A stretch of DNA of 64,000 nucleotides from Methanosarcina horonobensis HB-1 = JCM 15518 (GTDB lineage: Archaea > Halobacteriota > Methanosarcinia > Methanosarcinales > Methanosarcinaceae). The position numbers were made by a program, and so were the translations under genes. Positions within the stretch are counted from its first letter, which is position 1; the number at the start of each line of letters is the position of its first letter. The stretch is from assembly GCF_000970285.1 (NCBI RefSeq), contig NZ_CP009516.1:2707036-2771035 (forward strand), written 5' to 3'. The notes beneath the pieces are model-generated. The model was not told the origin of the DNA and made no database searches. It was given only the letters and a program-made list of their open reading frames with translations. Below, one piece after another: positions 13,999 to 50,299 of the stretch.

Positions 13999-14050
13999 TT
14001 TTAACCCCCCATGTCTTTGTATTGGGCCAAAAAATTTAAGCATTTTTACT

Positions 14051-15100: not shown

Positions 15101-15124
15101 TATTTGCCTTCTATATAAATGAAT

Positions 15125-15157: not shown

Positions 15158-15189
15158 GTATATATAACATTTTACCTTTTTAGTAGTTG

Positions 15190-15339: not shown

Positions 15340-15974
15340 GTCGGCCAAGGTTCTCCAAAGACCATAGAACATACGGTGGATGGAAGAAAGCACAGCCCAG
15401 AGATTCAAAGTATGCTAAGGAAATCATCCGAAAACATGAGTATTTTCCTGACAGAAGCCTGAGTCAGCTTAGAAAAGCCAGGATAGAAGATTATGAATTA
15501 AGCAAACGTGCTTGGGACAGTCTTTCAGATCAGGAGAAGACAGATAGGCTACTATCTCTCGAAGTTTTAAGGGGACTGCGAAAAGGAGAAAACCTTTCTT
15601 CTGTACTTGAAAAAATGGGCTTAAGAACAGAATTTGCACTCAAACATCTTGGAAAGAACCTGTACAAATCAGGAGGAACTTGGAAGGTTACAAAAACAGA
15701 TTCAATTCAGGCAGAAATGAGGATCTATTCCACTGAAGGCCTGATAAGTATTGTAACGGCTAATTCAAAGGATAGATCCTTACTCGCTCAATATCCTAAC
15801 AGGGTAACTAGAGCGTTAAAAAACAATGATCCTTCAATACTTGACAAATTCAAAGATTTAAAAATCATTGATGCTAACGGCAAAGAACATAGGTTTGAAA
15901 CAGATCTCCAGGCCCTTTATGAGATCATGGAAGCTCAAGAAGAGCCCGAATTTCAGGAACTTTATGTACACTAA
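15336..15974 (+). CDS. conserved casposon-type protein of unknown function
   Basis: The 212-residue protein is basic and mainly helical. It begins MSRPRFSKDHRTYGGWKKA. The middle contains LRGLRKGENLSSVLEKMGL, which resembles a helix-turn-helix, followed by ALKHLGKNLYKSGGTWKVTK and a region beginning RIYSTEGLISIVTANSKDRS, a pattern also seen in proteins encoded by mobile elements. It overlaps the ribbon-helix-helix gene by four bases and is 12 bases from the HNH gene, so it belongs to the polB operon. A DNA-binding role is likely; replication initiation would be a guess. Confidence 0.65.
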   Translation: MSRPRFSKDHRTYGGWKKAQPRDSKYAKEIIRKHEYFPDRSLSQLRKARIEDYELSKRAWDSLSDQEKTDRLLSLEVLRGLRKGENLSSVLEKMGLRTEFALKHLGKNLYKSGGTWKVTKTDSIQAEMRIYSTEGLISIVTANSKDRSLLAQYPNRVTRALKNNDPSILDKFKDLKIIDANGKEHRFETDLQALYEIMEAQEEPEFQELYVH

Positions 15975-15986
15975 ATAGGTGAAAAC

Positions 15987-16343
15987 ATGAGTAAAGAAAT
16001 TTATCAAAAATGTGTAAGAGAAGATATAAGGAATGGAATATCGGTTCCTCGTTGTGTAATGTGTGGAGAAGAAGATCAAGTTGTATTAGAGAAACATCAC
16101 AATTTTACAAGAAATGCTTCCGAAGAGATAGTATTACTCTGTAAAAACTGTCATGCCAAAATCACCAACGAACAAAACAAAGTAAGCCCTAAATCCAGGT
16201 CAACAGATGCTTCATATCTTGAAAAGATTGCTTATCAGCTAGTTACCATTGGAGCCATGTTAAGGGATACTGGAAAACAGTTAATCAAAATTGGCCACGA
16301 GTTGATACATTATGTCCAAAATTGTAGTTCGAAGCTTTACTAA
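15987..16343 (+). CDS. HNH endonuclease of the casposon
   Basis: The 118-residue protein contains the HNH nuclease core: the zinc knuckle CVMCG near residues 25-29, the catalytic EKHHN near 38-42, and the second knuckle LLCKNCHAKIT near 56-66. A helical tail follows. HNH nucleases are standard members of casposon gene sets; their role in transposition is not settled. It lies in the polB operon, and its last 32 bases overlap the start of polB in another frame. A clear ATG follows AGGTGAAAAC at about 15977-15986, a good ribosome binding site. Confidence 0.85.
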   Translation: MSKEIYQKCVREDIRNGISVPRCVMCGEEDQVVLEKHHNFTRNASEEIVLLCKNCHAKITNEQNKVSPKSRSTDASYLEKIAYQLVTIGAMLRDTGKQLIKIGHELIHYVQNCSSKLY

Positions 16344-18966: not shown

Positions 18967-19147
18967 ATTAGTTAATATCCGGATTTAAAAACAAAACAAA
19001 TTAAATTAGAGAAATCAGGTACAATATGCGAAGGGTAATATAATCCCTTCAAATTTTTATCAAATAGCAAATTCTATCTAAACTATGCCAAAAGTTATAA
19101 GCCTATCACTATTTAAACCGATAGAATTAATGGAGTAATTCAATAAA

Positions 19148-22100
19148 ATGTCTATACAAGATGTGGCTAGAGAGCAAATAGAAACCACCAAAAAGGTTTA
19201 TCTTCTAAGTCCTGAACGTATGTTTTCCGAATATAACGGTGAAAAAGAAAATGTAAAAAATTATAATGGACGCCAGTTACTTGAAATGATTCAAAATGCA
19301 GAAGATGCGGCCATTGAAGCAAAAGGAGAGAAGAAGGTACTAATTAAACTTCAAGAAAACCAACTAACCATAGCAAATACAGGTTATCCTTTTTCAAATG
19401 ACGGCTTGATTTCCATTTTCCATAGTCATCTTAGTCCAAAACAGGCACAAAAAGATCAAATTGGGAATAAAGGTTTAGGGTTTAGGTCTATTTTAAGTTG
19501 GGCGAATAAAGTAACCATTAAAAGCCACGATTTATGTGTAGCATTTTCGAAGGAGTACAGCAAAAAAGTTTTAGATGACTTGTTAAGAAATCCTGAGTTT
19601 GCAAATAAATGTAATAAATTTAATGAGCGAACTAAGGAAGCACCAATTCCTACTTTAGCTTGTCCGGAAGTAATTACAGCTGACACCAACAAATATGTAG
19701 CCTATTCAGAATTTGACACCATCATCCAAATAGATTTGAAAGAAACAGCTCTAAAAGAAGTAAATCAACAAATTGAAAAAGATATAGATGGAGAAGTATT
19801 GATATTTCTGAATCATCTTGAAAGAATAGAATTGAATATTAACGGCGCTATCACAATATATGATAAAAAGATTTTTGGTTCGTTGGTTAGACTTACAACA
19901 ATAAAAAACAGCGACACACCAATTATACGGTTTTGGAATATTAACACACAAAGTGGCAAGTTTGAAGACTTAGATAGAGATTACCAATTAAGTGTAGCGT
20001 GGAAAGATGAACTGGATGATAAAAAGGATATTGTTTACTCTTACTTCCGAACTAAAGTCCCATTTCATTTTTCAGGCATATTACACGGCACATTTGACTT
20101 AAATGCTGATCGTAATGACATTATCACTGATGAAGAAGGGTACAATCAAAGATTAATAGATTTAATACCCGATTTAATAGCAGATACGGCTGAAAAAATC
20201 GCAAAAAAAGAAACACAAGTAAATTATAAGGCAAGAAGTTTTACGATTTTCGAAAATAATGCTTTACCAAAAATTATACAGGAATCAGGCTTTGAAAATA
20301 AACTCAAAGATGCACTATATACTAAAGAAATATTTCCAACCATTTCCAATAAGTATATTTCATTAAAGGATAAGCCTGTATATTTCGAGTACGGCCATGA
20401 CGTTTTCGCAAAACTCCTCCCAAAAGATGTTTTTCCAAACATACTAGTATTCTGCAACGAAGAAAAAATTAGGAAATACTTGCCTAAATTTAAAAATGAT
20501 ACCCATGCCTTTCAATCATTATGCAGTGCAATATCTGCAAAAAGAAAAGAGTATTCAATGGAAGAAAATGCTTTATTAATTAAGGTATTTACTGAACTTT
20601 TTGATACAGTTAAAGACAGTGATTCATGCTTATTTTTTGATTCGGAGTTTAATCCATTACCATTTAATAATAATATTTTCTTACCTCCTAAAGGAAATGA
20701 ATATGTGTTGCCACCAGAGATTGGCATTCAAATAATTCATCCTGAGCTTGCCAAAAAATTGGAAAAGGCGTTAGTAGCTAATAGTTATGAATCGTTATCA
20801 TCTAAACTCTATAAGTTTCAAATAAAAACATTTGATTTCACTACAACTGTTAAGCTATTGATAAGTCATTACTATTCCAAAAATCCCAATAAAGCGGAAA
20901 TTGAAGACATAAAAAAACTAAACCAAATCATTTTTAGGTTATATCAAAGAGAAAAGTCACAATCAACAAATTGGCAAGGACCAGTAGTTCCGTTAATTAA
21001 TAAAAATAATAAAATTGAACTTGCTAACAAGCTGTATTTTGGAAAAGAATATGGAAATATCACGACAGAAGCAATTTATAATTACAATAAAAGTAAGTTA
21101 GTTAATTCGCCAAAAGGATATGGGATTGATGAGAGTGACTTCAAAACATGGAATTTTTATTTGAAATGGCTTGGAGTTGCTGAGTTTCCACGAAAAATAC
21201 AAGTAGAAGGTACAGAAGAATTTGCTGAATATGCCATGAAGCATTATAATTTTAAAGACCCAATAGACGGTCAATACTTTAAGGATTTTAGTGAATTTAA
21301 AAATAATCTAACCTTATATTCTGAAATAAAGGTCACTAGTGTTGATGACTTAGATTTAATTTTAATAAATAACAGTAGCGAAAATATACTTTCATGGTTA
21401 AATTCAGACAGTGAATTATTGAGACAGATTGACAAAGATGAAGAGAGTCCGACAAGTAAAATTTCCTTCTTTTTATACAGAAAGATAAACATTAGGATCC
21501 TCCAAGGGCTTAAATTTAGAAATTTCTTAAAATGGAAACTGTCAAATACTGCCTGGTTAAACACAAAAAGTGGAGTTAAACAATCTCCTCGCTTATGCAC
21601 TACATCGGCTACTATAGCAGATGAACTTAGCCCATTCATTGAAAAACCTAATGTTGATTTTGATGCTACAATCTTTAGAGGCAATAAGATCAGACGTGAC
21701 AAAATAGATTATCTGTTGAACTTGGTAGGAGTCAATAAAACTATCTCTTCATTCTCAACAAATACACTTTACTCAATTTTATTAAAACTTCCTGAAAATG
21801 ATCCAGAAGGAAAAAAAGCAAAGTCTTTCTATCGGGAGTTATCGGCAAATTATGAAGAGAAGAATTTGGATACCACCGATGATGAGTATAAAAATTTTTT
21901 ATCAAGAGGTCTGGTCTTTTGTAAAAAGGAAGGAAAAAATAGTTACGAAAAAGCAAGTAATGTATTTTACGTAAATAACAAAAGGTACGGCGAAAGTATT
22001 ACAAAACAATTCTTCACCCTTGAAGCTGATCGCAGAAGAGGGATAAGAAAGATTGAAAAAATCTTTGGTGTGAAGCCGCTTAAAGGTTTAGAATTAAATT

Positions 22101-23989
22101 TAACTGGTCAACCAAACTTTCACAACTTGAATAGCAGATTTGAACAGGAAATTGAAGCATTTAAGCCTTATGTGTATATTTATAGGCAACATTTAGATAG
22201 TACAAGAAGAGAAAAAAATCTTATAAAAGATGTGAAGTTTAAATTAGTAAACACATTAAATATCTCATTAGAGCTAGAAAATAAAAGTTTGGAGATTAAG
22301 TTATCAGATTATGAATATTTTTACCAACATGACACTAATACTTTTTTTATAAAAACTCCCATATATTTGGATACAGAAAAGGAACTAAAAAATGATATAA
22401 ACTTTTGCTCTGCTATAGCTGAAGCATTTTCAGCCTTGATTGATGTAGATGCACAAAGACAGCAAATAAGAGAGCTGTTTTCAAACTCCTCAACTAACAG
22501 GGATGACATTATCCGTGAAGAATTTGATGACAGGCATCTTGAAAAACTAATATCAGCTAAAGATAAGCTAGGCATAACAAATGATACAAAATGGAATTTT
22601 TGGAAGTCTTTTGTAAAATGCTTCCCTTCTAAAAAAATTAATCTATCATGTGACGCTGACGAAATTTTGTTAGAAGAGTTAAAACGCCTTTTCCCCGACA
22701 ATAGCGAACAAATAATTATAGCAATGGATAAGATTAACTATGATAACTATAACGAAGAAAAATCGTTACGTTTAATAATCGAACTATTGAAAAAAACCGG
22801 TTTATCCATTGATGATTTTAATGAATATGTTTATCCTTCGATTGATATTTCTGAAATATATGAGCTCGATTTTAAAAGGATAAAAGATAGCAAGAAAAAA
22901 GAATTTAAGCAAGTTTTTTATTCAAGTTTTATAGACTCTGAAAAAGACAAAATGGAATTTTTAGACGGAATAAATAAATACGATTCAATTAAAGGGTACT
23001 CTAGAAACACAATTGATTATAATGTTGAAGAAGACCTAGTTTCAAGAGTGAAAGATCTATTTCAGCTCGATTTGCTTAATGTAAAATCTGATTTAGATAT
23101 CGAATCTATATATTTTAACAATAAAACTAAATACGAAAAAAGAGTTGAGGAAGAGCAAATTTCTAAAGAGCTTGGTAGTCGCTTTCTCTATGAAAATTCA
23201 AATTTAGAAAGCTTACTATATTTTAAAGACGAAATCGAGAACCTGATAATACGTCTTAAAGAATGGACTCCAGTATCTAGCAGTACTAGTTCATCTAAGA
23301 GCAATAATGGATTGGAAAAAAATAATAGTTTAATAATTGGTGATACTACCTTTCTTTATAACGATTATTGTGAGTTATCTCATCAATTAAAAACTGGTTT
23401 CGACAATGGCAATTTTCAAATAAATCTCTCAAAAGTTGAGATTAAAAAAGCTGATATTTCTGATCGAAAAAATGGAAAAGGCAATTATTTAATGAATTAT
23501 TCCAAAACCACCAAAAAGCAAAAAGAAGGCCTAGGTTTTTTGGGTGAATTCTTGGTCTATAATTACCTCCGCAAAACAATAAGCATTAAGGAAAATGTCA
23601 AATGGGTTTCCGAGTATGCAAAAGTAGCCGAAATAAATTTGGATGGAAAAGATGGTAAAGGATATGATATTGAATATATACCAGATGGTGAAGAATACCC
23701 AAAATATGTAGAGGTCAAAGTAGTAGGAAAGGACAACGCTTTTCATATTACTTCAACTGAAATTATAGAAGGGGAGAAACTGGGAGGACGTTATGAAATA
23801 TTTATGGTTAGAAACATAACCGATCATGAAAATATTTCGATTGAAGTTATTCAAGGCCCATTTGATTATAAAGGTCAAGAAAGCTTTAATGATAATAAAC
23901 TATTCACGGTACTAAATGACAGCTTTATATTGAAATTTGAAAAAACAGATGAAAATAACAAGAAAATCTTATCATCTTCATTTAAGTAA
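19148..23989 (+). CDS. sacsin-like HSP90-type ATPase with C-terminal DUF3883 nuclease-like domain
   Basis: This 1613-residue protein begins with a GHKL/HSP90-type ATPase: N-box LLEMIQNAEDAAIEAKG near 46, ANTGYPFSNDG near 77 and the glycine-rich IGNKGLGFRSI near 104, as in sacsin-type proteins. A very long helical middle region follows. Residues of about 1450-1585 form a DUF3883 (NOV C-terminal) domain: GFLGEFLVYNYL, then GYDIEYIPD and YVEVKVVG, whose D and ExK spacing resembles a PD-(D/E)XK nuclease. An ATPase sensor coupled to a nuclease-like domain is an architecture common in anti-phage genes. It is AT-rich and codon-wise unlike core Methanosarcina genes, which suggests acquisition as cargo. 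It stands alone in the right arm. The defence role is inferred. Confidence 0.85.
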   Translation: MSIQDVAREQIETTKKVYLLSPERMFSEYNGEKENVKNYNGRQLLEMIQNAEDAAIEAKGEKKVLIKLQENQLTIANTGYPFSNDGLISIFHSHLSPKQAQKDQIGNKGLGFRSILSWANKVTIKSHDLCVAFSKEYSKKVLDDLLRNPEFANKCNKFNERTKEAPIPTLACPEVITADTNKYVAYSEFDTIIQIDLKETALKEVNQQIEKDIDGEVLIFLNHLERIELNINGAITIYDKKIFGSLVRLTTIKNSDTPIIRFWNINTQSGKFEDLDRDYQLSVAWKDELDDKKDIVYSYFRTKVPFHFSGILHGTFDLNADRNDIITDEEGYNQRLIDLIPDLIADTAEKIAKKETQVNYKARSFTIFENNALPKIIQESGFENKLKDALYTKEIFPTISNKYISLKDKPVYFEYGHDVFAKLLPKDVFPNILVFCNEEKIRKYLPKFKNDTHAFQSLCSAISAKRKEYSMEENALLIKVFTELFDTVKDSDSCLFFDSEFNPLPFNNNIFLPPKGNEYVLPPEIGIQIIHPELAKKLEKALVANSYESLSSKLYKFQIKTFDFTTTVKLLISHYYSKNPNKAEIEDIKKLNQIIFRLYQREKSQSTNWQGPVVPLINKNNKIELANKLYFGKEYGNITTEAIYNYNKSKLVNSPKGYGIDESDFKTWNFYLKWLGVAEFPRKIQVEGTEEFAEYAMKHYNFKDPIDGQYFKDFSEFKNNLTLYSEIKVTSVDDLDLILINNSSENILSWLNSDSELLRQIDKDEESPTSKISFFLYRKINIRILQGLKFRNFLKWKLSNTAWLNTKSGVKQSPRLCTTSATIADELSPFIEKPNVDFDATIFRGNKIRRDKIDYLLNLVGVNKTISSFSTNTLYSILLKLPENDPEGKKAKSFYRELSANYEEKNLDTTDDEYKNFLSRGLVFCKKEGKNSYEKASNVFYVNNKRYGESITKQFFTLEADRRRGIRKIEKIFGVKPLKGLELNLTGQPNFHNLNSRFEQEIEAFKPYVYIYRQHLDSTRREKNLIKDVKFKLVNTLNISLELENKSLEIKLSDYEYFYQHDTNTFFIKTPIYLDTEKELKNDINFCSAIAEAFSALIDVDAQRQQIRELFSNSSTNRDDIIREEFDDRHLEKLISAKDKLGITNDTKWNFWKSFVKCFPSKKINLSCDADEILLEELKRLFPDNSEQIIIAMDKINYDNYNEEKSLRLIIELLKKTGLSIDDFNEYVYPSIDISEIYELDFKRIKDSKKKEFKQVFYSSFIDSEKDKMEFLDGINKYDSIKGYSRNTIDYNVEEDLVSRVKDLFQLDLLNVKSDLDIESIYFNNKTKYEKRVEEEQISKELGSRFLYENSNLESLLYFKDEIENLIIRLKEWTPVSSSTSSSKSNNGLEKNNSLIIGDTTFLYNDYCELSHQLKTGFDNGNFQINLSKVEIKKADISDRKNGKGNYLMNYSKTTKKQKEGLGFLGEFLVYNYLRKTISIKENVKWVSEYAKVAEINLDGKDGKGYDIEYIPDGEEYPKYVEVKVVGKDNAFHITSTEIIEGEKLGGRYEIFMVRNITDHENISIEVIQGPFDYKGQESFNDNKLFTVLNDSFILKFEKTDENNKKILSSSFK

Positions 23990-24259
23990 ATTTATATGTA
24001 ATTTTAAAATTTAGCATTATACTAGAATAAACACTTAGAAAATTGTGCTGTAAGTTTATTACAAATACATACTAAAAGTTTAACTTATTTTTAGTCAGAT
24101 TGTATAACGATTTATCATGTTACTTTACCAAAACGTAATATTACTTTTTTATAGTCTATAAAAAAATTAATTTTTCATTAAAATACCATAACAAAAAAAA
24201 TGCTTTTTGGTTGAGGCTACTTTAGGATAGAATTGGTTGTGCGTTATTTATACAAAATA
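23990..24259. other. casposon right subterminal region
   Basis: No gene was seen here. GGTTGTGC at 24235-24242 is the inverted copy of the GCACAACC found 15 bases inside the left terminal repeat; here the gap to the terminal repeat is 17 bases. The rest is AT-rich. Confidence 0.6.
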
Positions 24260-24290
24260 GCGTTGCTTTTTTTCCTTATATCTATAACCC
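24260..24290 (-). repeat. right terminal inverted repeat of the casposon
   Basis: These 31 bases are the exact reverse complement of 5126-5156, ending outward in TCTATAACCC. Immediately outside is the second copy of CGCATCTGTTTCTA. Confidence 0.96.
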
Positions 24291-24304
24291 CGCATCTGTT
24301 TCTA
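24291..24304 (+). repeat. right target-site duplication of the casposon
   Basis: CGCATCTGTTTCTA is identical to 5112-5125. The following bases, AAATCC, would be the original sequence downstream of the tRNA-Leu(UAA) gene before insertion. Confidence 0.95.
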
Positions 24305-37475: not shown

Positions 37476-40400
37476 TTATTTTCTTCTATACAGGAACACT
37501 CCAAGCAGCCCGAGAATACAGTAAATCATTTCGAAACCAGGCGTAATTTTACTATCCCCATCCGGTTCAATTCCTGGTTCCGTATTATCTTGTTCCTGTG
37601 TTCCCGAGTTAGGTGTTGCTTCTCCTGTATGGCTTTCATCTTCTTCGTTTGATGTCATCTTACCTGTTATTGCAAAGAATGAATAACCCGGGACGCTGGA
37701 TTTGAAATACAGATATTTATTGTCTTCTCCTGAAAGGCTTGCTGGCAGTTTCTCCCATGTTTTGTTGCTGTACCTGTTGAGAGTGATTGAATCCTTGTCT
37801 ATGTTTTTATCCTTGATCCATGCTTTTTCAACCTTGAAGCAGAGGGCTGGGTTTTCAATATTCGCGGACGTTGCAAACCCACTGTTTCCTACCCAGACAT
37901 TGAAGTACTTGTAGACAACTCCATCAGACAGGTTGGAGACAAGAGTAGATTTATTTTTTAACTGCTCAACAATGGTCGTGGTCTTTCCAACAGTCTTCTT
38001 AGCGTCAAAGCCTACAGACACAACGCATGTTGCGTTCTTTGTGAAATCAAACTGTACAGCCTTACCGTTTGTGATAGATACCTGTGAAAGTTCCTTTACT
38101 TCAACGTTTCTTGCAGGTTCAGGAGAACCTCCGCCACCACCGCCACCACCGTTGCTGCTTCCTCCGCTGCTCTTCCGGTCTGCGATTATCTGAGCAGTTG
38201 TTGAATTTTCACCGTTTGCATTTTTTGCGGTCAGTTTAACTGTATAAGTTCCAGCTGATGAGTATTCATGAGTTGGATTCTGATCGGTTGAACTCGCTCC
38301 ATCCCCAAAGTCCCAGGTCCAGCTGGTTGCGTATTGCGAAAGGTCAGTAAAGGTAACTGAGAGAGGAGCATCGCCGCGTGTAACACTCATACTGAAGTTC
38401 GCTACAGGAAGCACATTACTTTCGTTAAGTACGGTTATTGTAGCAGTTGTTGAAGTCGTGCTGTTCAGGTTGCTTACCGTCAGGTTAACTGTATAACTTC
38501 CTGCTGCAGAATAAGTATGCTTTGGACTCTGCTCGGTTGAATTATATCCGTCTCCGAAGTCCCATAACCAGGATGTTGGTGTCGGAAGTCCGGTTGATGC
38601 ATCCGTGAACGCTACATCAAGCGGCGCAAGACCGGTTGTCAGATTACTGGTGAAATTAGCAACTGGAGGTGTCGATTGAATGACCGTGATTGTTTTAGTG
38701 ATCGATTGGTTGGAAACGTCATTTGTTACCGTTAAATTAACCGTATAAGTTCCTGGTGTTGTGTATTTATGAACAACATTTGCAGTACTGCTGTTAGAAC
38801 CGTCACCAAAATCGAGCAGTTGAATGGTGTGGTTGACACTATAATCCGCAAAAGTCACATTTTCCCCTGTATATACATTATCTGAAGAAACTGTGAAATT
38901 TGCAATTACATTAGAAAACCTGCCGGATGGAACCCAGGACGAATTTCCAAGATCTCCCATGAGATAGAATGTTCCGTTCTTCTGGTTGGTATAATTCAGA
39001 ATTGATTCCAGCCTTGATGTTGAAGTTTGATATTCCCCGGTAACATTTGAAGTAATTGCATGCCCGTATAACACCAATACGTACCCATGTTGCATCGCGT
39101 AATCAATTCCGTATTTTATGGACTCAAGACTAACATTGGACTGGTCATCTATTTCAACACCATAAACAACTCGAGCATCGTCCCACTTGTAATAAGCGTT
39201 TGATTCATTTACATTTACTGTTTCGAAATTCGTCGACCTGAGTGTCCTGAAATATGGAGCCAGTAACGAATCGGTAGTTTCGTTTCTACTTGAATAGGGA
39301 TATGCCAGGGAATAAACCGGATAACCATAACCGGTTATTTCTGCGATGTTAGGGAATATTTCCTGGTTCAGCCACTCTTCAGAAGTGCTATTATTTAGAA
39401 ACTCAATAGAATTTAAGTGATTGTACCCGTGCCCAGCTATTTCCCATCCGGCATTGTGCAGTGCGCTCAGGTTATCTGTTGTACCTTGCCCCCAGGCACT
39501 CAAATTATTTATATTCATAGTACAGCTGGCATTATACGTCTGGAACGTTGCTAGATTTTCATAACATGGACCAATATTTTGCACGTCATCCCATGATAAA
39601 GCAACACCTCCGGTTCGACCCGTAGTAACTATAATTGTTTTAGTTATCGAGTGGCTGTGAATGCCATTTGTTACCGTTAAAACAGCATTATAGGTTCCTG
39701 GTGTTGCATATGTATGAGTGACATTTGCACTAGTGCTGCTAGTACCATCTCCGAAATCTAAAAATTCAGAAGTCTGGTTGATGCTGTAACCTACAAAAGT
39801 CACATCTCCTCCTGCAACAATAGTATCTGCAGAAATTGTGAAATTTGCAGTCACATTAGAGGTTGCGGAGGACCAGGACGAATTACCTAGGTCTCCCAGG
39901 AGATAGAAGTCTCCGCCCTGTGCTTTGGTATAACTTAGAATTTCTTCCAGTTTCGAGGTTGAAGTCTGATATTCGGCGGGTGTACCTGAGGTAATTACAT
40001 GCCCATATAACAGCAGTACATATTCATTAGCTATTGCGTAATCAATTCCAGCTTTTATGGACTCCAGACTAACATTGGACTGGTCATCTATTTCAACAGC
40101 ATACAGAACTTGAGTATCGTCCCACTTGTAATAAGCGTCTGGTGTGTCATTTACATTCTGTCCGTCCATAGTTTCGAATTCCGACGATCTAAGTGTCCGG
40201 AAGTATTGAGCCAATAATGCATCAGTATTATTATCTCTACTTCCGTAAGGATATGCAAAGGAATAAACTGAAAAACCTAAAGCATTTAGTGCGTCGATGT
40301 TCGAAATTATTTCCTGGTTCAACCACACATCAGAAGTGTAATTGTTTAGATATGCAACTGAATCTTCGTGATTATGCCCATGTGCAGCTACTTCCCATCC

Positions 40401-40667
40401 AGCAGAATGCAGTGCACTCAGGTTATCTTTTGTACCCTGCCCAAAGGTACTTAGATCATTTGAATTTATATTGATAGTACACGTAGCATTATACTCCTTA
40501 AATAGTTCCAAATTTTGATAACACGGATCAACACTTAATACATCGTCCCATGATAGGGCGATACCTCCTGTATGACCCGTAGCTGCATTAGCAGTACCAG
40601 CCAGACCAATTAACAGAATGAAGAATAATCCATATTTTGCACATGATTTGAATTTATAAAATTTCAT
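37476..40667 (-). CDS. surface protein with two polysaccharide deacetylase domains, PKD repeats and PGF-CTERM
   Basis: The 1063-residue protein repeats the neighbour's plan with an extra module. Order: signal peptide, deacetylase 1 (LSWDDVLS, AAHGHNH), PKD, deacetylase 2 (LSWDDVQN, AGHGYNH), three PKD domains, a Gly-rich linker, PGF-pre-PGF and a C-terminal TPGFEMIYCILGLLGVFLYR tail. Deacetylase 2 onward is nearly identical in DNA to the gene at 34635, so one arose from the other by duplication with later gene conversion. The tail just before the anchor differs (Asn/Glu/Gly-rich), showing where conversion ended. Start ATG at 40667 follows AAGGTCTGATC. Substrate unknown; probably a surface polysaccharide. 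Confidence 0.88.
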   Translation of the reverse strand: MKFYKFKSCAKYGLFFILLIGLAGTANAATGHTGGIALSWDDVLSVDPCYQNLELFKEYNATCTININSNDLSTFGQGTKDNLSALHSAGWEVAAHGHNHEDSVAYLNNYTSDVWLNQEIISNIDALNALGFSVYSFAYPYGSRDNNTDALLAQYFRTLRSSEFETMDGQNVNDTPDAYYKWDDTQVLYAVEIDDQSNVSLESIKAGIDYAIANEYVLLLYGHVITSGTPAEYQTSTSKLEEILSYTKAQGGDFYLLGDLGNSSWSSATSNVTANFTISADTIVAGGDVTFVGYSINQTSEFLDFGDGTSSTSANVTHTYATPGTYNAVLTVTNGIHSHSITKTIIVTTGRTGGVALSWDDVQNIGPCYENLATFQTYNASCTMNINNLSAWGQGTTDNLSALHNAGWEIAGHGYNHLNSIEFLNNSTSEEWLNQEIFPNIAEITGYGYPVYSLAYPYSSRNETTDSLLAPYFRTLRSTNFETVNVNESNAYYKWDDARVVYGVEIDDQSNVSLESIKYGIDYAMQHGYVLVLYGHAITSNVTGEYQTSTSRLESILNYTNQKNGTFYLMGDLGNSSWVPSGRFSNVIANFTVSSDNVYTGENVTFADYSVNHTIQLLDFGDGSNSSTANVVHKYTTPGTYTVNLTVTNDVSNQSITKTITVIQSTPPVANFTSNLTTGLAPLDVAFTDASTGLPTPTSWLWDFGDGYNSTEQSPKHTYSAAGSYTVNLTVSNLNSTTSTTATITVLNESNVLPVANFSMSVTRGDAPLSVTFTDLSQYATSWTWDFGDGASSTDQNPTHEYSSAGTYTVKLTAKNANGENSTTAQIIADRKSSGGSSNGGGGGGGGSPEPARNVEVKELSQVSITNGKAVQFDFTKNATCVVSVGFDAKKTVGKTTTIVEQLKNKSTLVSNLSDGVVYKYFNVWVGNSGFATSANIENPALCFKVEKAWIKDKNIDKDSITLNRYSNKTWEKLPASLSGEDNKYLYFKSSVPGYSFFAITGKMTSNEEDESHTGEATPNSGTQEQDNTEPGIEPDGDSKITPGFEMIYCILGLLGVFLYRRK

Positions 40668-41497
40668 TGTGATCAGACCTTCTTAAAGAAGGCATTTAAT
40701 GCCTTCTTTTTCCTAAACAAGCAATTTAAATGCCTTTTTCAAATTTAACATAAAGAAGTTCTACTTTGATTAGTGGGGTAAAATATTTTTTATGTACTTA
40801 GTTACGACTCGAACATCATTATCCTCCGAATATGTCTGGTATGAACCCCGTTTTTGGAATTTTTCATGTTTCAAAAATACTCTTTTAACCAGAATCGTAG
40901 ATTTCAAAATGTACGTACAGTCTGGTTTTGAGAGGCAATTTAATTTATAACAGAAGAATGTTAATTAAACAGAACATATTACTACATTCTAATATTTATA
41001 GTTAAGTCATTTGAATTTATGTTGAATTCAAAATAATTATATTTACAAACTGATATTATTTTGAGTTTAAGCGTTCATGCTTAAGCCGCATGACAGCTAT
41101 GTTGTTATAATGCACAACCGTTGCCTGCACGGAACTACTGAAGAGAAACGAAAAAATTGTCTCTGTACCATATGGTCATAAAGTAAGAAAAATTAACTTT
41201 ATCAAGAAATTTAAAGATAAAAGTGTCAATAAATTCTAAAAATAAAAAATTAGTGGTATAAGTCATAAAGAAACCTGGCACCAAAATAAAAGTAGAAGAG
41301 TTATAATTTTGGAGTTTTGCTTCATACTATGAATATCTCCAGAATAACCTGGCTTGTTCCAGTCAAATACAAAAAAGACTTTGAGAATGTGAAAACTTAA
41401 ATTAACCAGGAAAAAATTCAAGAGATTAGACAGCAGGGATCAGTTATCCCTACCATCTAACTGCAGTTCGTTCAGTTTATCTTCTTCCACATTCAGT
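40668..41497. promoter_or_regulatory. leader and promoter of the second deacetylase gene, and downstream flank of the third
   Basis: 40668-41010 mirrors the leader of the paralogue: TATA at about 40994-41002, GTACGTAC near 40912, CGGGGTTC near 40846, CCTCC at 40823-40827 (GGAGG on the minus strand) and the short ORF MFES at 40802-40816. From 41010 to 41497 I see no gene; the last 70 bases carry the flank shared with the other two paralogues. Confidence 0.6.
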
Positions 41498-43453
41498 TTA
41501 TTTTCTTCTATACAGGAACACTCCAAGCAGCCCGAGAATACAATAAATCATTTCGAAGCCCGGAGCACGTGTTCTTCTCACAGAAGTTCTGTTAGCTTCT
41601 GCTTCAGTATCATTTTTATCTTCCTGAGTCTCAGGTTTAGATGTTATTGCATCTTCTGTCGTCTTACCTGTTATTGCAAAGAATGAATAACCTGAGACGC
41701 TGGATTTGAAATACAGATACTTGTCGTCTTCCCTTGAAAAGTTTGTTGGCTGCTTTTCCCAGGTTTTGTTATTGTATCTGTTAAGGGTGATTGAATCCTT
41801 GTTTATCTTATTATCCTGGACCCAGGATTTTTCAACTTTGAAGCAGAGCGCAGGGTTGTCAATATTCTCGGATGTTGCAAACCCGCTATTTCCAACCCAG
41901 ACATTGAAGTATTTATAGACCTTTCCTTCAGGCAGTCCGGAAACAAGTGTAGACTTATTCTTCAACTGTTCAGCAATAGCTGTTGTCCTGCCAGCAGTCT
42001 TTTTAGCATTGAAACTAATACACACGACACATGTTGCGTTCTTTGTGAAATCAAACTGAGCAGCTTTGCCGTTTGTAATGAAAGCCTGCGAAAGTTCCTT
42101 TACTTCAACATTCCCTGCAGGTTCAGGAGAACCCCCACCGCCGCCGCCGTTGCTGCTTCCTCCGCTGCTCTTCCTGTTTACAACTATCGTATCAGTTTTT
42201 GAATTTTCGCCGTTTGCATTGGTTACGGTCAGTTTAACTGTATAAGTTCCAGCCGATGAGTAGACATGTGTTGGACTCGGTTCATCTGAAGTCGTTCCAT
42301 CCCCAAAGTCCCATGACCAGGATGTTGGAACTCCGGTTGATGTATCTGTAAATGCTACATTCAACGGTGCAACTCCAGTTGTGGGATTACTGGTGAAACT
42401 AGCTACTGGAGGTATCGGGTCAGTAACCGTAATTGTTTTAGTGATCGATTGGTTGGAAACGTCATTTGATACCGTTAAATTAGCGATATAAGTTCCTGGT
42501 ACTGAATATGTATGAGTAACGTTTACAGTACTGCTGTTATAACCATCACCAAAATCTAGCAGTTCACTGGTCTGGTTTACGCTGTAATCCGCAAAAGTCA
42601 CATTTCCCCCCGTTAACACTGTATCTGAAGAAACTGTGAAGTTTGCAGTCACATTAGAAAATCTACCAGGTCTTACCCAGGCGGAATCACCCAGCTCTCC
42701 CATGAGATAGAATGTTCCGTTCTTCTGGTTGGTATAATTCAGAATTGATTCCAGTCTTGAGGTTGAAGTTTGATAAGGTCCGGTAACATTTGAAGTAATA
42801 GCATGCCCGTATAAAACCAGTACGTACTCATTAGCTATTGCATAATCAATTCCATATTGTATAGATTCAAGGGTAATACCAGTCTGGTCATCTATTTCAA
42901 CAGCATATACAAGTTGAGTGTCGTTCCACTTGTAATAAGCGGCTGACTCGTTTACATTCACCGTTTCGAAGGCCGTCGCTCTAAGTGTTTGGAAGTATGG
43001 AGCCAGTAGTGCATCAGTAGTTTCATTCCTTAACGAGTAAGGATATGCAAAGGAATAAATCGGATAACCATAACCGGTTATTTCTACTATGTTAGGGAAT
43101 ATTTCCTGGTCAAGCCACTCGTCAGGAGTGCTATTGTTTAGAAATTCAGTTGAATTTTTATGGTTGTGCCCATGTGCAGCTATTTCCCATCCAGCTTTAT
43201 GCAGTTCATTCAATGCAGTTCTTGTACTATTTGGGCTCTCACTTACTGAGTTTATATATATAGTGCATGTAGCATTATGCTGCTGGAACATTGTTAGGTT
43301 TTCATAACATGGCTCAATATTTCCTATATCGTCCCAGCATAGAGCAATACCTCCTGTGTGATTCGTAGCTGCACTAGCGGTGCCAGCCAGACTAATTACC
43401 AGTATGAGAAATAATCCATATTTTGCATATAGTTTAAGTTTATGAAATTTCAT
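41498..43453 (-). CDS. third surface polysaccharide deacetylase with PKD domains and PGF-CTERM
   Basis: The protein of about 651 residues has a signal peptide, one deacetylase domain (LCWDDIGN, AAHGHNH), two PKD domains, a shorter Gly-rich linker, PGF-pre-PGF and an APGFEMIYCILGLLGVFLYR tail. It is the most diverged of the three and lacks one PKD domain. The ATG at 43453 is preceded by GGAGGCATGATAAC, a strong ribosome binding site, so it is chosen over the upstream codon at 43462. All three are likely exported and processed by archaeosortase. The set looks like a tandem family still exchanging sequence. Confidence 0.88.
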   Translation of the reverse strand: MKFHKLKLYAKYGLFLILVISLAGTASAATNHTGGIALCWDDIGNIEPCYENLTMFQQHNATCTIYINSVSESPNSTRTALNELHKAGWEIAAHGHNHKNSTEFLNNSTPDEWLDQEIFPNIVEITGYGYPIYSFAYPYSLRNETTDALLAPYFQTLRATAFETVNVNESAAYYKWNDTQLVYAVEIDDQTGITLESIQYGIDYAIANEYVLVLYGHAITSNVTGPYQTSTSRLESILNYTNQKNGTFYLMGELGDSAWVRPGRFSNVTANFTVSSDTVLTGGNVTFADYSVNQTSELLDFGDGYNSSTVNVTHTYSVPGTYIANLTVSNDVSNQSITKTITVTDPIPPVASFTSNPTTGVAPLNVAFTDTSTGVPTSWSWDFGDGTTSDEPSPTHVYSSAGTYTVKLTVTNANGENSKTDTIVVNRKSSGGSSNGGGGGGSPEPAGNVEVKELSQAFITNGKAAQFDFTKNATCVVCISFNAKKTAGRTTAIAEQLKNKSTLVSGLPEGKVYKYFNVWVGNSGFATSENIDNPALCFKVEKSWVQDNKINKDSITLNRYNNKTWEKQPTNFSREDDKYLYFKSSVSGYSFFAITGKTTEDAITSKPETQEDKNDTEAEANRTSVRRTRAPGFEMIYCILGLLGVFLYRRK

Positions 43454-43462
43454 CGTTATCAT

Positions 43463-44230
43463 GCCTCCTCAATGAAGACAATATTGAATGTCTTCTTCTT
43501 AAACAATAATTTAAAAACCTCCTTTTTTTCAATTTAATAACAGAACTTCTTCTTTTTGCGGATAAGACAGGATTTTCCTTTTTCATTTTGCAGCAGTCTC
43601 ATTATTATCCTCCTAGTATGTATTTATATGAACCCCGTTTTTGGACTTTGATATGTTCAAGGTTGCTCCTTTAACCAGAACACTTAACCTAAAAAATAAA
43701 CAAAGCCTGATTCTGGAAACAATCCACCTGTAAAAAGTATCAATTTATTAAGCAGAATATATTACAACGTTCTAATATTTATAACTAAGTTGTCTGGACT
43801 TATGACAGGTTGTATATGCCAGCATACAGCCTTATTGCAGTGCTAACCATATTGCCTCTTGCCAATTTACTCTATAAAAATTCAAGGCAGGTTCTCTATA
43901 AAATATCTTCTCCCTGGTGCCGGTTCGATGGGAGGGATCCTTTCCTGCTCTCAGGCCCGGTTGTGATCTGGCTCACCCCTTTATGTACCAGAAACGGGCT
44001 CACAGGATAATTCTCAAATTAAGGGGACTTATTAAAAAAGATCAGGGAAACACTATTAAAGAAATATTTATAATTTTTGTTTCCCATCGTGTGAATCTGC
44101 TCTTTTGTTTTCACACTCAGGATTAAAATATCAGATTATCTGTTTTTTTCCTGCAGGGTGATGGGCTAACTTACTTACCTTTAAGAGTAAGAGGAAATTT
44201 AAGTTATATTGATCAGGATTTATCTCTTGT
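43463..44230. promoter_or_regulatory. leader and promoter of the third deacetylase gene, then unassigned sequence
   Basis: Minus-strand TATA at about 43777-43785, CGGGGTTC near 43633, CCTCC at 43609-43613 and an ATG at 43600-43602 (complement) opening a short ORF, here MRLLQNEKGK and onward, repeat the layout of the other leaders. 43800-44230 has two short open stretches without family resemblance; I treat them as non-coding or relic. Confidence 0.55.
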
Positions 44231-44232
44231 GA

Positions 44233-44649
44233 GAAACAACTCCAGAAGGTGAATTAAACTCCGTTCTTGACGTAGGCTGCGGAACAGGGCGGCAGGCTGT
44301 GAATGTCTCGGAGATTATAGGGCATTTCGGGAAGCTCACAGGTATTGACCCTTCCTCATATCGTATTGAATTTGCGCGGAAAAAGTTTGGTGAAGACTCC
44401 ACCGGAAGCGTCCGTTTTTTTGTGGGACAGGTTGAGGATCTTATTGCCGTTCCGGACAATTCAATCAATCATTCATATTTTTGTTCCTCATTCCACTGGG
44501 TTGACGACAAGAAAACCGCCCTCAATGAGATATACCGTGTACGATAGGAGATTACTGAAGAATTCGTGAAGGTAGAGGCCCCGACAGGTGTCTATTTTGA
44601 AAACATTATGCTGTTTGCGATTGCAACAAAACCAAACGAAAGGATGTAA
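44233..44649 (+). pseudogene. decayed SAM-dependent methyltransferase
   Basis: The frame gives SVLDVGCGTGRQAVNV (motif I), LTGIDPSSYRIEFAR, DNSINHSYFCSSFHWVDD and ALNEIYRV, then an in-frame TAG at 44545-44547, then EITEEFVKVEAPTGV and ending FAIATKPNERM. The whole segment between the LNEIYRV strand and the C-terminal strands is missing, and there is no start codon after the upstream stop at 44230. This is a deleted, truncated class I methyltransferase. Confidence 0.82.
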
Positions 44650-44774
44650 ACCAATGGCTGAGCTTTTTCTCAAAGTTTTGATGCGCTGGCAGCTGATCCA
44701 TAAATTTTAACTGGCAGAATCTTAAAATCTAACATCTTAACCCGAATAGGTCCCATAAAACCGGTCTTTCTCAG

Positions 44775-45000
44775 GTCCTAACTCATTCCAAAACTTTGTT
44801 GGTAAGGACGAAAAACTTATCACTTTTGGCGTTTTGCTTCGTGTAGGTAAGTCCACCTAGAAAACCCCATTTTTTCTAATAAAAGCATTCTGAATTTTCC
44901 CTGATTTTTAAGAATCGTCCCTTAAAAACCCAGACTCGAATTAATAATATCCACTTTTTTGTTTCTACTTTTAAATTGTGAACTGATTCTCAGTTTAATA
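44775..45000 (-). pseudogene. decayed Cas1/casposase C-terminal fragment
   Basis: On the minus strand one frame reads KKWGFLGGLTYTKQNAKSDK, then FFVLTNKVLE, against KKLGFSKGTLHYMKQNAKND and KPFTLNSHVLE in the intact casposase. DNA similarity continues on both sides, for example TTTTTAAGAATCGTCCCTTA against the matching stretch near 12957. Stops interrupt the frame and the catalytic part is gone. It is the remains of a casposase or closely related cas1 gene, about 20 kb beyond the intact casposon. Confidence 0.85.
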
Positions 45001-45093
45001 TGTAATACTAAATATAATTAAAGCATAATTTAACGTAAACACCGAAAGTACCATAAACCAGGCCTAACCGGATCAACAGGTTGCTGAAAACTT

Positions 45094-45732
45094 ATGATAA
45101 AATCAGGTGGCTCTTTTTTCTATAAGGGATATCGATGCACTATCGGCGCTGTAATCTCACTAAAAGGATTGCCTTATATGGTCACAGTTTCTCATATATT
45201 TCATCGGGGAGAAGGAGATCATTTGACTGTGGATGGAATGAAAGTTGCCGTTACAAGCATTCTGAAACCTTTTGATTTAGCTTTGATAGAACTTCCTTCT
45301 AACTGCATGTTTCAGATCACAGAGCTTGGCAGTGCATCTGAGCTGGAGCAAGCTTTGCTTGTCAATGATATTCGTGCTATCAAATGCAGGGTAGTTAATG
45401 CCGGGACTTCATTGCTTTTCCTGGGCTTCCAGTGCTATAATATGCCAGAACCCGGAGATAGCGGTTCCCCTATCCTGCAGTCAGGGAAGGTAATAGGGCT
45501 TATATCCTCGATAACAATGGACAATTGCATGGGAACTGCAATTTCGTCCAGCGTTATCCGCAGTATGGAGGATTACGAAGATAAGAACAAAGACGAAACA
45601 AATAAAGTTCTTTTAAGGAAACAAAAATCTTTTAAAGAGACAAAGCTTTATAAAGGAATAAAGTCTCTTTTAAGGTTCTCCAATAATCTGCAGCACGATT
45701 TTTCTTACTATTTCAATCCTGTCAAAGTTTAG
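45094..45732 (+). CDS. trypsin-like serine protease, cytoplasmic
   Basis: The 212-residue protein has a chymotrypsin-fold catalytic triad: H34 in VTVSHIF, D61 in FDLALIEL and S123 in PEPGDSGSPIL, with GLISSITM after it. It is about the size of a minimal S1-type domain and lacks a signal peptide or PDZ domain, so it should act inside the cell. The last 50 residues are basic and helical. It sits alone between relics of a casposase and a transposase, and its own sequence is intact. Target unknown; stand-alone trypsin-like domains often serve in stress or defence modules. Confidence 0.8.
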   Translation: MIKSGGSFFYKGYRCTIGAVISLKGLPYMVTVSHIFHRGEGDHLTVDGMKVAVTSILKPFDLALIELPSNCMFQITELGSASELEQALLVNDIRAIKCRVVNAGTSLLFLGFQCYNMPEPGDSGSPILQSGKVIGLISSITMDNCMGTAISSSVIRSMEDYEDKNKDETNKVLLRKQKSFKETKLYKGIKSLLRFSNNLQHDFSYYFNPVKV

Positions 45733-46155
45733 TATAAGAATACATTAAAAAAGATTGGAGAAAAGCCCAAAGGAATTATGTTTCTTTCCCGTGCCCCCCC
45801 GAACACAGGAACTAATATCTTCTAGGCAATTCTTATTCGCACCATTAACGGTTATTCAATCGTTAGTCCTCACCCATTTCCTTTCTAAATTCAATGAAAT
45901 CTCTCTCGACCTCTTCTAGTTCGTGTTCCATTTTATACCCCCATTTTCAGTTGTGATAAAACTTACGCAGTGGAACTGAGATTAGATTTTCTCTATCTCT
46001 CCCAATTCAAATTATAATACTACTATGGTTACTTAAAATTAATTCTACAAAAAATTGCATAGTATCAAAACATCCCTTTGTATTAAAAGTTTCAAAGCCG
46101 ATGTCGAACTCTGTATGAGAAGATTACTCGAAAGGAAGAAACTATAATTGTGAGT
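45733..46155. other. intergenic region without recognised features
   Basis: About 420 bases between the protease gene and the transposase tail. No gene or clear hairpin was found. Confidence 0.5.
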
Positions 46156-46425
46156 TCATCCTAAAACTTGATTTAACATCGTTATTGCTGCTAAGATCAT
46201 AACTCCCAGGTATGATATTTCTTTGATTTCATATCTTGGAAATACCTTTTTGCATGATTCTATCCAGCTAGAAAAACTTTCTATTGCACTTTTCTTTTTG
46301 AATTCGCCCCAATCTACCTTTATTGGTCTCCCCCTCTTCTTTTTCTTTCTATTTCTTGTGTTTACTGGTATATTGGACTTTATTCCTCTTCTTCGATTAA
46401 TCTGGTAAACTTTAAAGGACATAAC
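46156..46425 (-). pseudogene. C-terminal remnant of an IS5-like transposase
   Basis: The stretch encodes RGIKSNIPVNTRNRKKKKRG, then RPIKVDW, SAIESFSSWIESCKKVFPRY and a hydrophobic LGVMILAAITMLNQVLG tail. This is the C-terminal end of IS4/IS5-type DDE transposases found in Methanosarcina, in which the E of SAIE is part of the DDE triad. The N-terminal two-thirds and the element ends are missing. Confidence 0.78.
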
Positions 46426-46575
46426 TCCTGAGCTTAACATCCACGACCCAATGCTTTTTCTGGTGGTTTTAGCCGAGATTCCAAACGGATTAAAGTCAGG
46501 TACTAAAGAAAAATTGAAAACGAAGTAGAGTAGTTTTTTGGAACTACATCAATTCAAAAACATAGAAAAGTCAGG

Positions 46576-47523
46576 TTACATGCAGCCCTTACATTTTGAA
46601 CAATCGCCGCAGGTTGTAGTTTCCGTATAATCGCCACCTGTGATTTTAAATATACATTCAGATATACTATATTCAGTTGCTCGCATACCGTCATCTATGG
46701 TTACGGAATCCTCACCAAAGAACAGTTTTACTGGCACTTTTTCATAATCTTCCATCAAACCCGGTTTCAGCTTCGGGAAGATGATTTTCCTTTCACCGTT
46801 GCTTTTCTTGACAGAAATGATGTCAAAGGTAGCAAGAGAGGTTAACCTGCCGTTTCTGTCAAAGCCCAGGGAGTTTTTATCCGCATCGATGCCCAGTGCA
46901 TTTGCATCATACACATTAATCGAGCCAATGGGAGTTTCAACAGGAACTGGTTTTGCCGGTTCTACGGACTCTATGCTTCCATCTTCAAAAAGTTTGAATC
47001 CTGTTCGAATGGGAATTTTTCCTGCAGGAGTATTAATTGTAATTGTTTCGGTAGGCCACAGGATCAGGCTTCTGACTTTTCCTCCCGGATAAAAGCGCAA
47101 CCCGATTATTTTTACATTGAAACTCCCGAACGGGAACGTAAAATCATATTTCTGTGCCAGAGCCCCTTCATCTTCTTCCGACCAGAAACCGCTGATTTGC
47201 CCGTTTAGGGGAAACAAACTATTGAGCGAACCGTCTTCAAAAAAAGTTACCAGTTCGGCAGGGAATGTTCCTATTGATGTGTTTACTTCAGTTTGCTGCT
47301 CTAAAGAAATGCTTTTAACTTTTCCGTTTTTATAGAAGGACAGAGCTTTTAACTGTTTTCTTCTGATTCCTGGATCTCCGTACTGCGGAACAAAGTCACC
47401 GTATTTTGTGTGGATCAAGTTGTAATCATTAAGCTTGCACTCATTCAGTTCGCCGTTATCATATGTAGTAAAGCTCGTTATTCCTTTGATTCCGCTTAGT
47501 TCAACAGTTGACATTGTTATCAT
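46576..47523 (-). CDS. conserved protein with repeated beta motifs and a C-terminal cysteine cluster
   Basis: The 315-residue protein is beta-rich, with five or six loose repeats of the type FYKNGKVKSISL, FFEDGSLNSLFP, FYPGGKVRSLIL and LFEDGSIESVEP, resembling YwqK/MORN-like hairpins, separated by IPIRTG and VPVETPIG turns. It ends with CGDCSKCKGCM, a likely metal or redox cysteine cluster. No signal peptide is present. The likely start is the ATG at 47514 (MSTVELSG) or codons just upstream. The family looks conserved, but I know no function for it. Confidence 0.75.
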   Translation of the reverse strand: MITMSTVELSGIKGITSFTTYDNGELNECKLNDYNLIHTKYGDFVPQYGDPGIRRKQLKALSFYKNGKVKSISLEQQTEVNTSIGTFPAELVTFFEDGSLNSLFPLNGQISGFWSEEDEGALAQKYDFTFPFGSFNVKIIGLRFYPGGKVRSLILWPTETITINTPAGKIPIRTGFKLFEDGSIESVEPAKPVPVETPIGSINVYDANALGIDADKNSLGFDRNGRLTSLATFDIISVKKSNGERKIIFPKLKPGLMEDYEKVPVKLFFGEDSVTIDDGMRATEYSISECIFKITGGDYTETTTCGDCSKCKGCM

Positions 47524-48243
47524 TCCTGATTGAAAAATAGATTCAGTTCTTAATTTTAACTCAAAAATTTACTTTAACCCAAGTTCTCTACTTTTTACTC
47601 GATGCTGAAAGAAATACTGAATATTAATAATAAAAATCTAATTGCATGTCATTAAATTTCTGGGATATACCATATATTAATGCTCCCTTCCTAATTTCGT
47701 TCGTCTGCGCGATACTTTCACATATGCAGCTCCTGCTCAGGAAAAATAATTTTTTTGAATGTTTATAGAGATCACCCCAAAATTAGCTTTATCTTCACAT
47801 CAGTAAAGTTTCATAATTATCTTCATAATCGAAAACTCAATTGTCTATTTAGAATTTGAAATTTAGAGAAGTAATTTTGAATTTCAGGATAAACTCATAG
47901 AGCTCATAGTAGCTTAATGTAAATATTTTCTAGGAGTCTTTTAATTTTTATCAGATTTTCATTTACTGGCTTTGCAAAAATCTGTTCCTGGTAGACGTGA
48001 TAATTAGTAAAATAAATATATCAATAAAACCATAACTTAATAATTAAATTATTTCAGTTGACAGATCATACTAAATCATATAAAATCGTCAGTCAAGACT
48101 CGCAATGCATATATTACTCCATAAGTGGAGGAAAAGCCATCATAATAGGGTTAGAATAAGTAATTGTGATAATTTTGGGTTATAAATTTTTATTTCTAGC
48201 GAAATAGACCAGAAAAATAAATCGGGACTAAAGGAGGGAAACT
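47524..48243. other. intergenic region without recognised features
   Basis: 720 AT-rich bases between divergent genes. TATA-like stretches are plentiful, but no RNA gene, repeat or relic was recognised. GGAGGG just before 48244 is the ribosome binding site of the next gene. Confidence 0.5.
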
Positions 48244-48663
48244 ATGACCAGAAAAACAGATGAAGTTATGTGTCCAAATCCAAAATGCGGATATTATCTT
48301 AAAGCAGAAGGAAAAGCCATAATAAAACGTGGAAAGTACAAAACCGGACATCAGAGATACTATTGTAAACACTGCAATAAGTTTTTTATGGATACAATAG
48401 GCACGGCTGTATATCGTAAACATCTGCCTAAAGAAGAAATTAGGCTTATATATCGACTTTTTCTCGAAAAAAATGGGATTAGAAGCATTGAACGGATAAC
48501 AGGGCATCACAGAGATACCATAAGCAATCTGTTAAAAGATACAGTGAAAAATGAAAAAACAGAAGAATATCTGATCAATCAAATTGGACTGACAGCTGAA
48601 GAATGCGAGAAATTGTGGGCACTTTTAGAAGTAAAGAGAAATTCTTCCCGAAAGTCTCCTTAA
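48244..48663 (+). CDS. IS1-like zinc-ribbon/helix-turn-helix protein (transposase N-terminal part)
   Basis: The 139-residue protein starts with a zinc ribbon (CPNPKCGYYLKAEGKAII and YYCKHCNKFF) and continues with a helix-turn-helix (IRSIERITGHHRDTISNLL), the layout of InsA of IS1-type elements. It has GGAGGG seven bases before the ATG. The DDE catalytic domain is not found downstream, so it is either a stand-alone DNA-binding protein or what is left of an IS1-family element. Confidence 0.75.
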   Translation: MTRKTDEVMCPNPKCGYYLKAEGKAIIKRGKYKTGHQRYYCKHCNKFFMDTIGTAVYRKHLPKEEIRLIYRLFLEKNGIRSIERITGHHRDTISNLLKDTVKNEKTEEYLINQIGLTAEECEKLWALLEVKRNSSRKSP

Positions 48664-49096
48664 AATGAAAAGACAGTATACATAAATAATTTATGTAATT
48701 CAATCCATCCAGAAGTCCTGTTCTATTACATTCTTTTTTAATTTTTTGTGGTTAAAGCACAAAGATTTGCCAAAGTAATAAGTATTTTATATAGGGCCAT
48801 ATATCCATTATGGAACTTATGCATCCTATAAAACAGGAAGATGTCCGATAAACAGTTATGGGGAGTCGTTGTATGTAAAGTGGTTTACTTTGCACCACTG
48901 ATTCTCAGCTAATCATCGCAGACACTCAAGAAGCCGGAGTGCTTTGGTTACATGTGCGCTAAAGTATTCCTAACTGAAGTGCATGAGGTTTCGAAACTTA
49001 ACATTACTAAAACACAAAATAAAACAGATCAAACCAGATAATTTTTAGGTGTAATATGTAAATAAAGGGTCAAAAATACAAAAAGGAGTTGGAAAT
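48664..49096. other. intergenic region without recognised features
   Basis: 430 bases, AT-rich, between two plus-strand genes. AGTGG near 48880 and CCACT near 48895 could form a small hairpin. GGAG at 49083-49086 is the ribosome binding site of the next gene. Confidence 0.5.
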
Positions 49097-50299
49097 ATGA
49101 GTAAAAGCACATTCTTGAGGGCAATGTCCCTATTTTTAGGGGTACTGCTTTACCTGGGGTCGATACCAGCTGCATTTGCTCAAACAGAATCAGCTAGTAC
49201 CTCGACTTCAAATGAAACCATAATACATGAAATAAGTCCCGGCTATTATGACTTGTACCTGCAGCAGGGGGAAAGCAGTAGCTTTAGTATAACTTTCACA
49301 AATAATGGTAAGAAAGCTCTTGAAATAGAACCAAAAGTTGTACCCATATGTTGCAGTTATGACTTTGACGAAAACTGGATAACCATATCCCCGGCAAACG
49401 TGGAGGTAGGACGAGGTGCAGAGCAGGAATTTACCGTTGAAGTTAATATTCCTGAGGATGCGGATGGTGGGAGTTATGAAACCTACATAGCTTTTACAGA
49501 CGATGTAGACCTTTACTCCCAGTTTATCAATGGAATGTACCTTTACATTACGGTCCCGACTTATCAAAAAATAGAGCTTCAAACATATTACATCTCTGAT
49601 TCCGTTGAGGCTGGAATAGAATATGAGTACACGGTAAAAATCAAAAACGTAGCAGCCAAAAATATAACTATCGACCCAAAGGTAACCGAAAATTACTACG
49701 ATAGCTCTTTTGATGAATTTGATATTGATGACAAAATAGAAATCATTGCACCGTCAACATTAGAACCGGGTCAAATTGCTAATATGACTATCCGGGTTTC
49801 TGTTCCGGAGGATGCAACAGGAACTTACGATGGATATATTGACATGAACGTTAATGGGAACGATAATGACGGAAATGAGCCGCAACTGGAGCTTTACTTG
49901 ACGGTTCTACAGCAGCCTTCAGTTCCTTATGTGAAAACCTTCAGTACCAAGACTGCCGACCCCATAACAATTGAAGTCTCAACTTATGTGTATAGCTCGG
50001 ATTCATGGTTGCGTATTCCACCTCAAGATGAAATCCCATCGTTTGAATTGAATCTGAAGTTTGATTCCAGTCCTGTTGATATGAGCCCTGTAAAAACAAC
50101 GCAAAGAGGCAATGTAGGTATTGGGTGGAATTATTTCCCAACCTGGTCAGAAGAAGATGGCGTAATCTATCAAAATTACGACAGGTATTATATTGAAAGG
50201 TATACAGTACCCGGAGCGATCGGAGATTGGGAACTTGAAATCCTTCCTAGAAACGCAGAAACTTTTGAATACTCGATAACTGTTGGAAACTCAAATTAA
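49097..50299 (+). CDS. secreted protein with two NEW3/COG1470-like beta-sandwich domains
   Basis: The 400-residue protein has a signal peptide ending near AAFA (residue 28). Two related Ig-like repeats follow, at about 50-150 (LQQGESSSFSITFTNNGKKA and EQEFTVEVNIPEDADGGSY) and 165-275 (YEYTVKIKNVAAKNI and NMTIRVSVPEDATGTYDGY), then a C-terminal beta domain. Such sandwiches are typical of archaeal surface proteins that bind carbohydrates or other surface molecules. No sorting tail or C-terminal membrane helix is present, so it is probably released or held by interaction. GGAGTTGGAAAT precedes the ATG. Confidence 0.8.
   Translation: MSKSTFLRAMSLFLGVLLYLGSIPAAFAQTESASTSTSNETIIHEISPGYYDLYLQQGESSSFSITFTNNGKKALEIEPKVVPICCSYDFDENWITISPANVEVGRGAEQEFTVEVNIPEDADGGSYETYIAFTDDVDLYSQFINGMYLYITVPTYQKIELQTYYISDSVEAGIEYEYTVKIKNVAAKNITIDPKVTENYYDSSFDEFDIDDKIEIIAPSTLEPGQIANMTIRVSVPEDATGTYDGYIDMNVNGNDNDGNEPQLELYLTVLQQPSVPYVKTFSTKTADPITIEVSTYVYSSDSWLRIPPQDEIPSFELNLKFDSSPVDMSPVKTTQRGNVGIGWNYFPTWSEEDGVIYQNYDRYYIERYTVPGAIGDWELEILPRNAETFEYSITVGNSN

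Follow-up and report, generated by a model that had tools for sequence, protein, structure and literature searches.

An old casposase gene fragment shared by several Methanosarcina species, and a genus-wide record of casposon remains

Casposases are transposon integrases thought to be ancestral to CRISPR Cas1. A 64,000-nucleotide stretch of the chromosome of Methanosarcina horonobensis HB-1 (NZ_CP009516.1, positions 2,707,036 to 2,771,035), referred to here as the window, contains a live casposon and, about 17-21 kb away from it, two sequences that resemble the 3' end of a casposase gene, relics A and B. Relic A raises the question of whether it records a recent invasion beside the live element, as the initial annotation of the locus had read it, or the remains of an older event. 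The analysis described here indicates that relic A is most probably the long-dead 3' end of the casposase gene of a family 2 casposon, which arrived before several species of the genus split and of which the rest has been lost. The coordinates of the features are collected in Table 1.

The live casposon carries a perfect 14-bp target duplication, CGCATCTGTTTCTA, at 5112-5125 and 24291-24304. In the length of its terminal repeats, in this duplication and in its insertion at the 3' end of a tRNA-Leu gene, it has the same layout as the published family 2 casposons of Methanosarcina mazei (PMC6977970, PMC10359463). The element also contains a polB fragment that forms an inverted repeat of 105 nt with the intact polymerase gene (8619-8723 and 18669-18773, 82%). 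A polB relic near relic A had been proposed as well, but the sole polB fragment detected is this one, and no match to a family B DNA polymerase (polB) was found in the window outside the live casposon. It is possibly the fragment that was originally meant. Among the cargo of the element, the gene at 19148-23989 has a NO VEIN C-terminal domain and scores 1230 bits against TmtA, a defence model of PADLOC.

Table 1. Positions of the casposon, the casposase relics and their neighbours in the window
Feature	Position	Strand	Description and evidence
tRNA-Leu (taa)	5031-5115	+	Target of the live casposon, at the tRNA 3' end; ARAGORN
Live casposon	5126-24290	.	31-bp identical terminal inverted repeats at 5126-5156 and 24260-24290
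polB C-terminal fragment	8488-8731	-	Within the live casposon, in opposite orientation to the intact polB; search of the genome with polB
Resident casposase	12772-14187	-	Cas1 fold and C-terminal tail; Pfam PF01867, E = 1.4e-68, residues 72-357
Resident casposon family B DNA polymerase	16312-18966	+	Pfam PF00136, E = 2.3e-5
Relic B, second piece	41290-41386	-	DNA profile E = 4e-6, profile positions 234-331; whole-genome model match E = 1.2e-5
PKD-domain/polysaccharide deacetylase gene	41498-43462	-	Between the pieces of relic B; Pfam
Relic B, first piece	44059-44192	-	Casposase C-terminal region; DNA profile E = 5e-14, profile positions 113-247
Methyltransferase pseudogene	44262-44648	+	Lacks about 315 bp internally compared with the intact gene of genome G001; alignment to G001
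Relic A	44707-45008	-	Frame-broken 3' end of a casposase gene (about residues 376-471 and 22 bp beyond the stop); blastn and DNA profile
Trypsin-like gene	45094-45732	+	Pfam PF13365, E = 0.00047 (below its cut-off); synteny; adjoins relic A in each of six genomes

When the window was compared with itself by blastn, relic A aligned with positions 12750-13062 at the 3' end of the resident casposase gene (320 columns, 66.6% DNA identity, E = 2e-28), and the alignment continues past the stop codon of that gene. A DNA profile built from eight casposase 3' ends matched relic A at 44751-44991 (E = 3e-25, 83.6 bits), and as a control it gave zero matches in 30 shuffled windows. The minus strand reads ...ECFY*KKWGFLGGLTYTKQNAKSDKFFVLTNKVLE*VRT*ERPVL, a frame interrupted by stops and indels, and no match to the catalytic (Cas1) domain was found nearby. 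Because the catalytic domain is expected to be absent from a fragment, relic A is classed as a casposase-gene relic and not as a casposase; its homology, which includes the C-terminal helix-turn-helix tail, places it as a pseudogene in the casposase gene of family 2 casposons. These results bear out the initial annotation on several points. It had placed the sequence almost exactly, at 44775-45000, and had described a minus-strand frame resembling the helix-turn-helix region of the casposase, DNA similarity outlasting that frame, a broken reading frame and a missing catalytic half.

The part of the M. mazei family 2 casposase that relic A matches is likewise the C-terminal helix-turn-helix region (PMC6977970, PMC10359463). 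Unlike the family 2 casposons themselves, relic A is a frame-broken piece of about 300 bp without ends, duplication, polB or catalytic domain. The only pair of terminal inverted repeats found in the window is that of the live casposon, and relic A has no ends left from which a 14-bp target duplication could be read. As terminal repeat, duplication and polB are all missing at relic A, we infer the insertion of a whole casposon there and do not observe it. Before several Methanosarcina species separated, a family 2 casposon would have entered the spacer that divides the methyltransferase and trypsin-like genes, or would have left DNA there. The ends, polB and the catalytic half of the casposase gene would then have been lost, and the persisting 3' end would be decaying as a pseudogene. 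We assign this explanation as a whole, in which relic A is a real fragment drifting without a working product, a probability of about 0.8.

Support for loss from a full element comes from elsewhere in the genus, where longer relics reach the catalytic domain and casposon ends. The small size of relic A, together with its lack of any end or duplication, would also fit an arrival without casposon insertion, through illegitimate recombination or the copying of a piece of casposase DNA. Such a route seems unlikely in view of the genus-wide search described below, in which 47 of 147 matches to the casposase C-terminal region had a casposon end within 8 kb on their C-terminal side and in the right orientation. 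Since many longer relics retain one end, a fragment such as relic A can be adequately explained by loss from a full element.

The age of the proposed insertion was addressed by comparing the same place in related genomes, as had been suggested at the outset. Of 31 Methanosarcina species genomes, 6 (G000, G003, G005, G018, G020 and G030) carry a relic at this site, with the same orientation throughout and directly upstream of the trypsin-like gene. The distance from the relic to the ATG of the trypsin-like gene, extrapolated to one common casposase position, ranges from 94 to 117 nt across the six genomes, one of which is that of the window, and the flank of relic A is conserved right up to the junction. 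In G001 the methyltransferase gene is intact and the spacer measures 112 bp, compared with 358 bp in the window, so that G001 represents the empty site; no relic was found at the orthologous place in G010 and G012. The gene order around the trypsin-like gene is retained in G020, G030, G010, G012 and G001. Within about 10 kb of the relic and the trypsin-like gene, G003 and G005 were found to have no further gene of the window, and the two may therefore have moved as a unit there. A tree of the casposase fragments was noisy and did not group the six copies in a single supported clade. The occurrence of relic A at one junction in six genomes, with an empty site elsewhere, means that it is older than the separation of those species or came with the whole locus. 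The simplest reading is that of an old event inherited by several species, and we infer vertical inheritance rather than movement with the locus.

A second casposase relic was also found in this stretch. The two pieces of relic B are contiguous in profile coordinates, which makes it probable that they are a single relic, one casposase fragment now split by the stretch that holds the PKD-domain/polysaccharide deacetylase gene. The methyltransferase pseudogene sits between relics A and B. Relic B is carried by G001 and G003 as well, upstream of the methyltransferase gene.

A separate and fairly recent casposon invasion beside the live element was the reading first given to the locus. In its favour, two relics lie near that element, and tandem or close insertion of casposons is possible (PMC10359463). 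However, relic A is strongly decayed and occupies a single junction in six species genomes, relic B is shared with G001 and G003, and relics are scattered across about 2 Mb of the chromosome to which the window belongs. A recent invasion is thus quite improbable, and the short distance between the live casposon and relic A, which is old and inherited, is no evidence of repeated recent invasion. The suggestion that this part of the chromosome is particularly affected holds at the megabase scale only. In single-contig Methanosarcina genomes, 47 of 54 relic loci fall within the middle half of the deposited chromosome sequence (p = 2e-8), a p-value that is too optimistic because depositors choose where a contig starts and because relics that species have in common are not independent. 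Overall, the initial annotation was right that this is a casposase relic and that the stretch holds a second relic; its reading of repeated invasion and its polB relic close to relic A were wrong or unproven.

A CRISPR cas1 relic had been named as the alternative to a casposon relic. In its favour, Cas1 is homologous to casposases, and the host genome has two CRISPR-type cas1 genes. CRISPR-type Cas1 (PF01867) has an ancestry in common with the casposase across the Cas1 fold. Family 2 casposases possess a C-terminal helix-turn-helix region in addition to this fold, and CRISPR Cas1 is without that region (PMC6977970). Both CRISPR-type Cas1 proteins of the genome align to the resident casposase only up to residues 391-394, whereas relic A spans the tail outside the Cas1 fold and the DNA past the stop. 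As relic A covers a tail that neither protein has, and as no array-like direct repeats were found at 40000-50000, an origin from a CRISPR-type cas1 gene was rejected and has next to no probability.

An old, decayed relic of a casposon is far from exceptional in the genus. A model of 252 nt of the casposase C-terminal region gave matches in 28 of 31 Methanosarcina genomes, about 148 in total, with 14 in the genome of the window, of which two belong to casposons whose casposase genes are full-length. A model of the catalytic region of equal length gave 53 matches, about 8 of which were judged to be CRISPR-type cas1, leaving about 45 that are casposon-like. C-terminal fossils are therefore about threefold commoner than fossils of the catalytic domain. 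Detection bias was rejected as the cause of this excess, because the two models are equally long and the catalytic block is slightly more conserved (89% versus 86% mean column identity) yet has fewer matches. Matches to polB were found in 12 genomes. Similar casposase fragments are also present in Methanococcoides and other relatives.

The position of the casposon ends is equally one-sided. On the side opposite the C terminus, an end was found for 6 of the 147 C-terminal matches; five of these are elements with full-length casposase genes and one is the locus L084 discussed below. Most flanks of the ends on the C-terminal side resemble the 3' end of tRNA-Leu. The part of the casposon nearest the tRNA perhaps tends to survive, deletions that reach the tRNA being putatively harmful. 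The idea that the dispersed C-terminal fragments are a separate repeat family with fixed borders was rejected, as their flanks share no common 5' border; on their C-terminal side, many of the fragments retain a casposon end. Immediately after the casposase stop, AT-rich repeat units of the type GTAAATTTTACAGTAAAATNGTAAAA were seen in several casposons and relics (L078, L079, L136 and L154).

Small elements with casposon ends and no usable casposase occur as well. At L084 (2602-6388, genome G030), a 3.8-kb element with a casposon end on each side and a perfect 14-bp duplication at tRNA-Leu has a casposase content limited to the C-terminal part. At L251 (393-2409, genome G015), an element of 2,017 bp likewise has its two casposon ends, together with a perfect 14-bp duplication; neither cas1 nor polB was seen inside it, and G015 gave no match to the C-terminal or the catalytic casposase model. 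Both look like natural non-autonomous casposons. In having ends without a functional casposase inside, they resemble the engineered mini-casposon that Cas1solo moves in M. mazei (PMC10359463), but the natural elements are only candidates for such movement; relic A is no such element. A third locus, L253 (224-6683, genome G020), holds an element of 6.46 kb that also has both casposon ends and a perfect 14-bp duplication and contains polB-like and HNH-like frames. It gave no match to the casposase C-terminal model, and its 571-codon open frame had no Pfam or PADLOC match. Our literature search found nothing linking casposons with non-autonomous elements; outside that search lies the survey of M. 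mazei casposons by Krupovic et al. (2016), which reportedly may describe remnants. We tentatively propose, as a possibility somewhat short of even odds, that the genus holds a dense fossil record in which the casposase 3' end and a single terminus are over-represented, and that it also has natural non-autonomous casposons which intact casposons mobilise in trans.

Taken alone, relic A is an ordinary fossil of a casposase gene; what merits further attention is the wider fossil record. CRISPR adaptation is proposed to have its source in casposons, and in the literature searched the history of casposons has so far been reconstructed from intact elements. The fossils that species have in common suggest a residence of casposons in Methanosarcina dating from before several of its species split, and they offer a route to study how often casposons arrive and decay.
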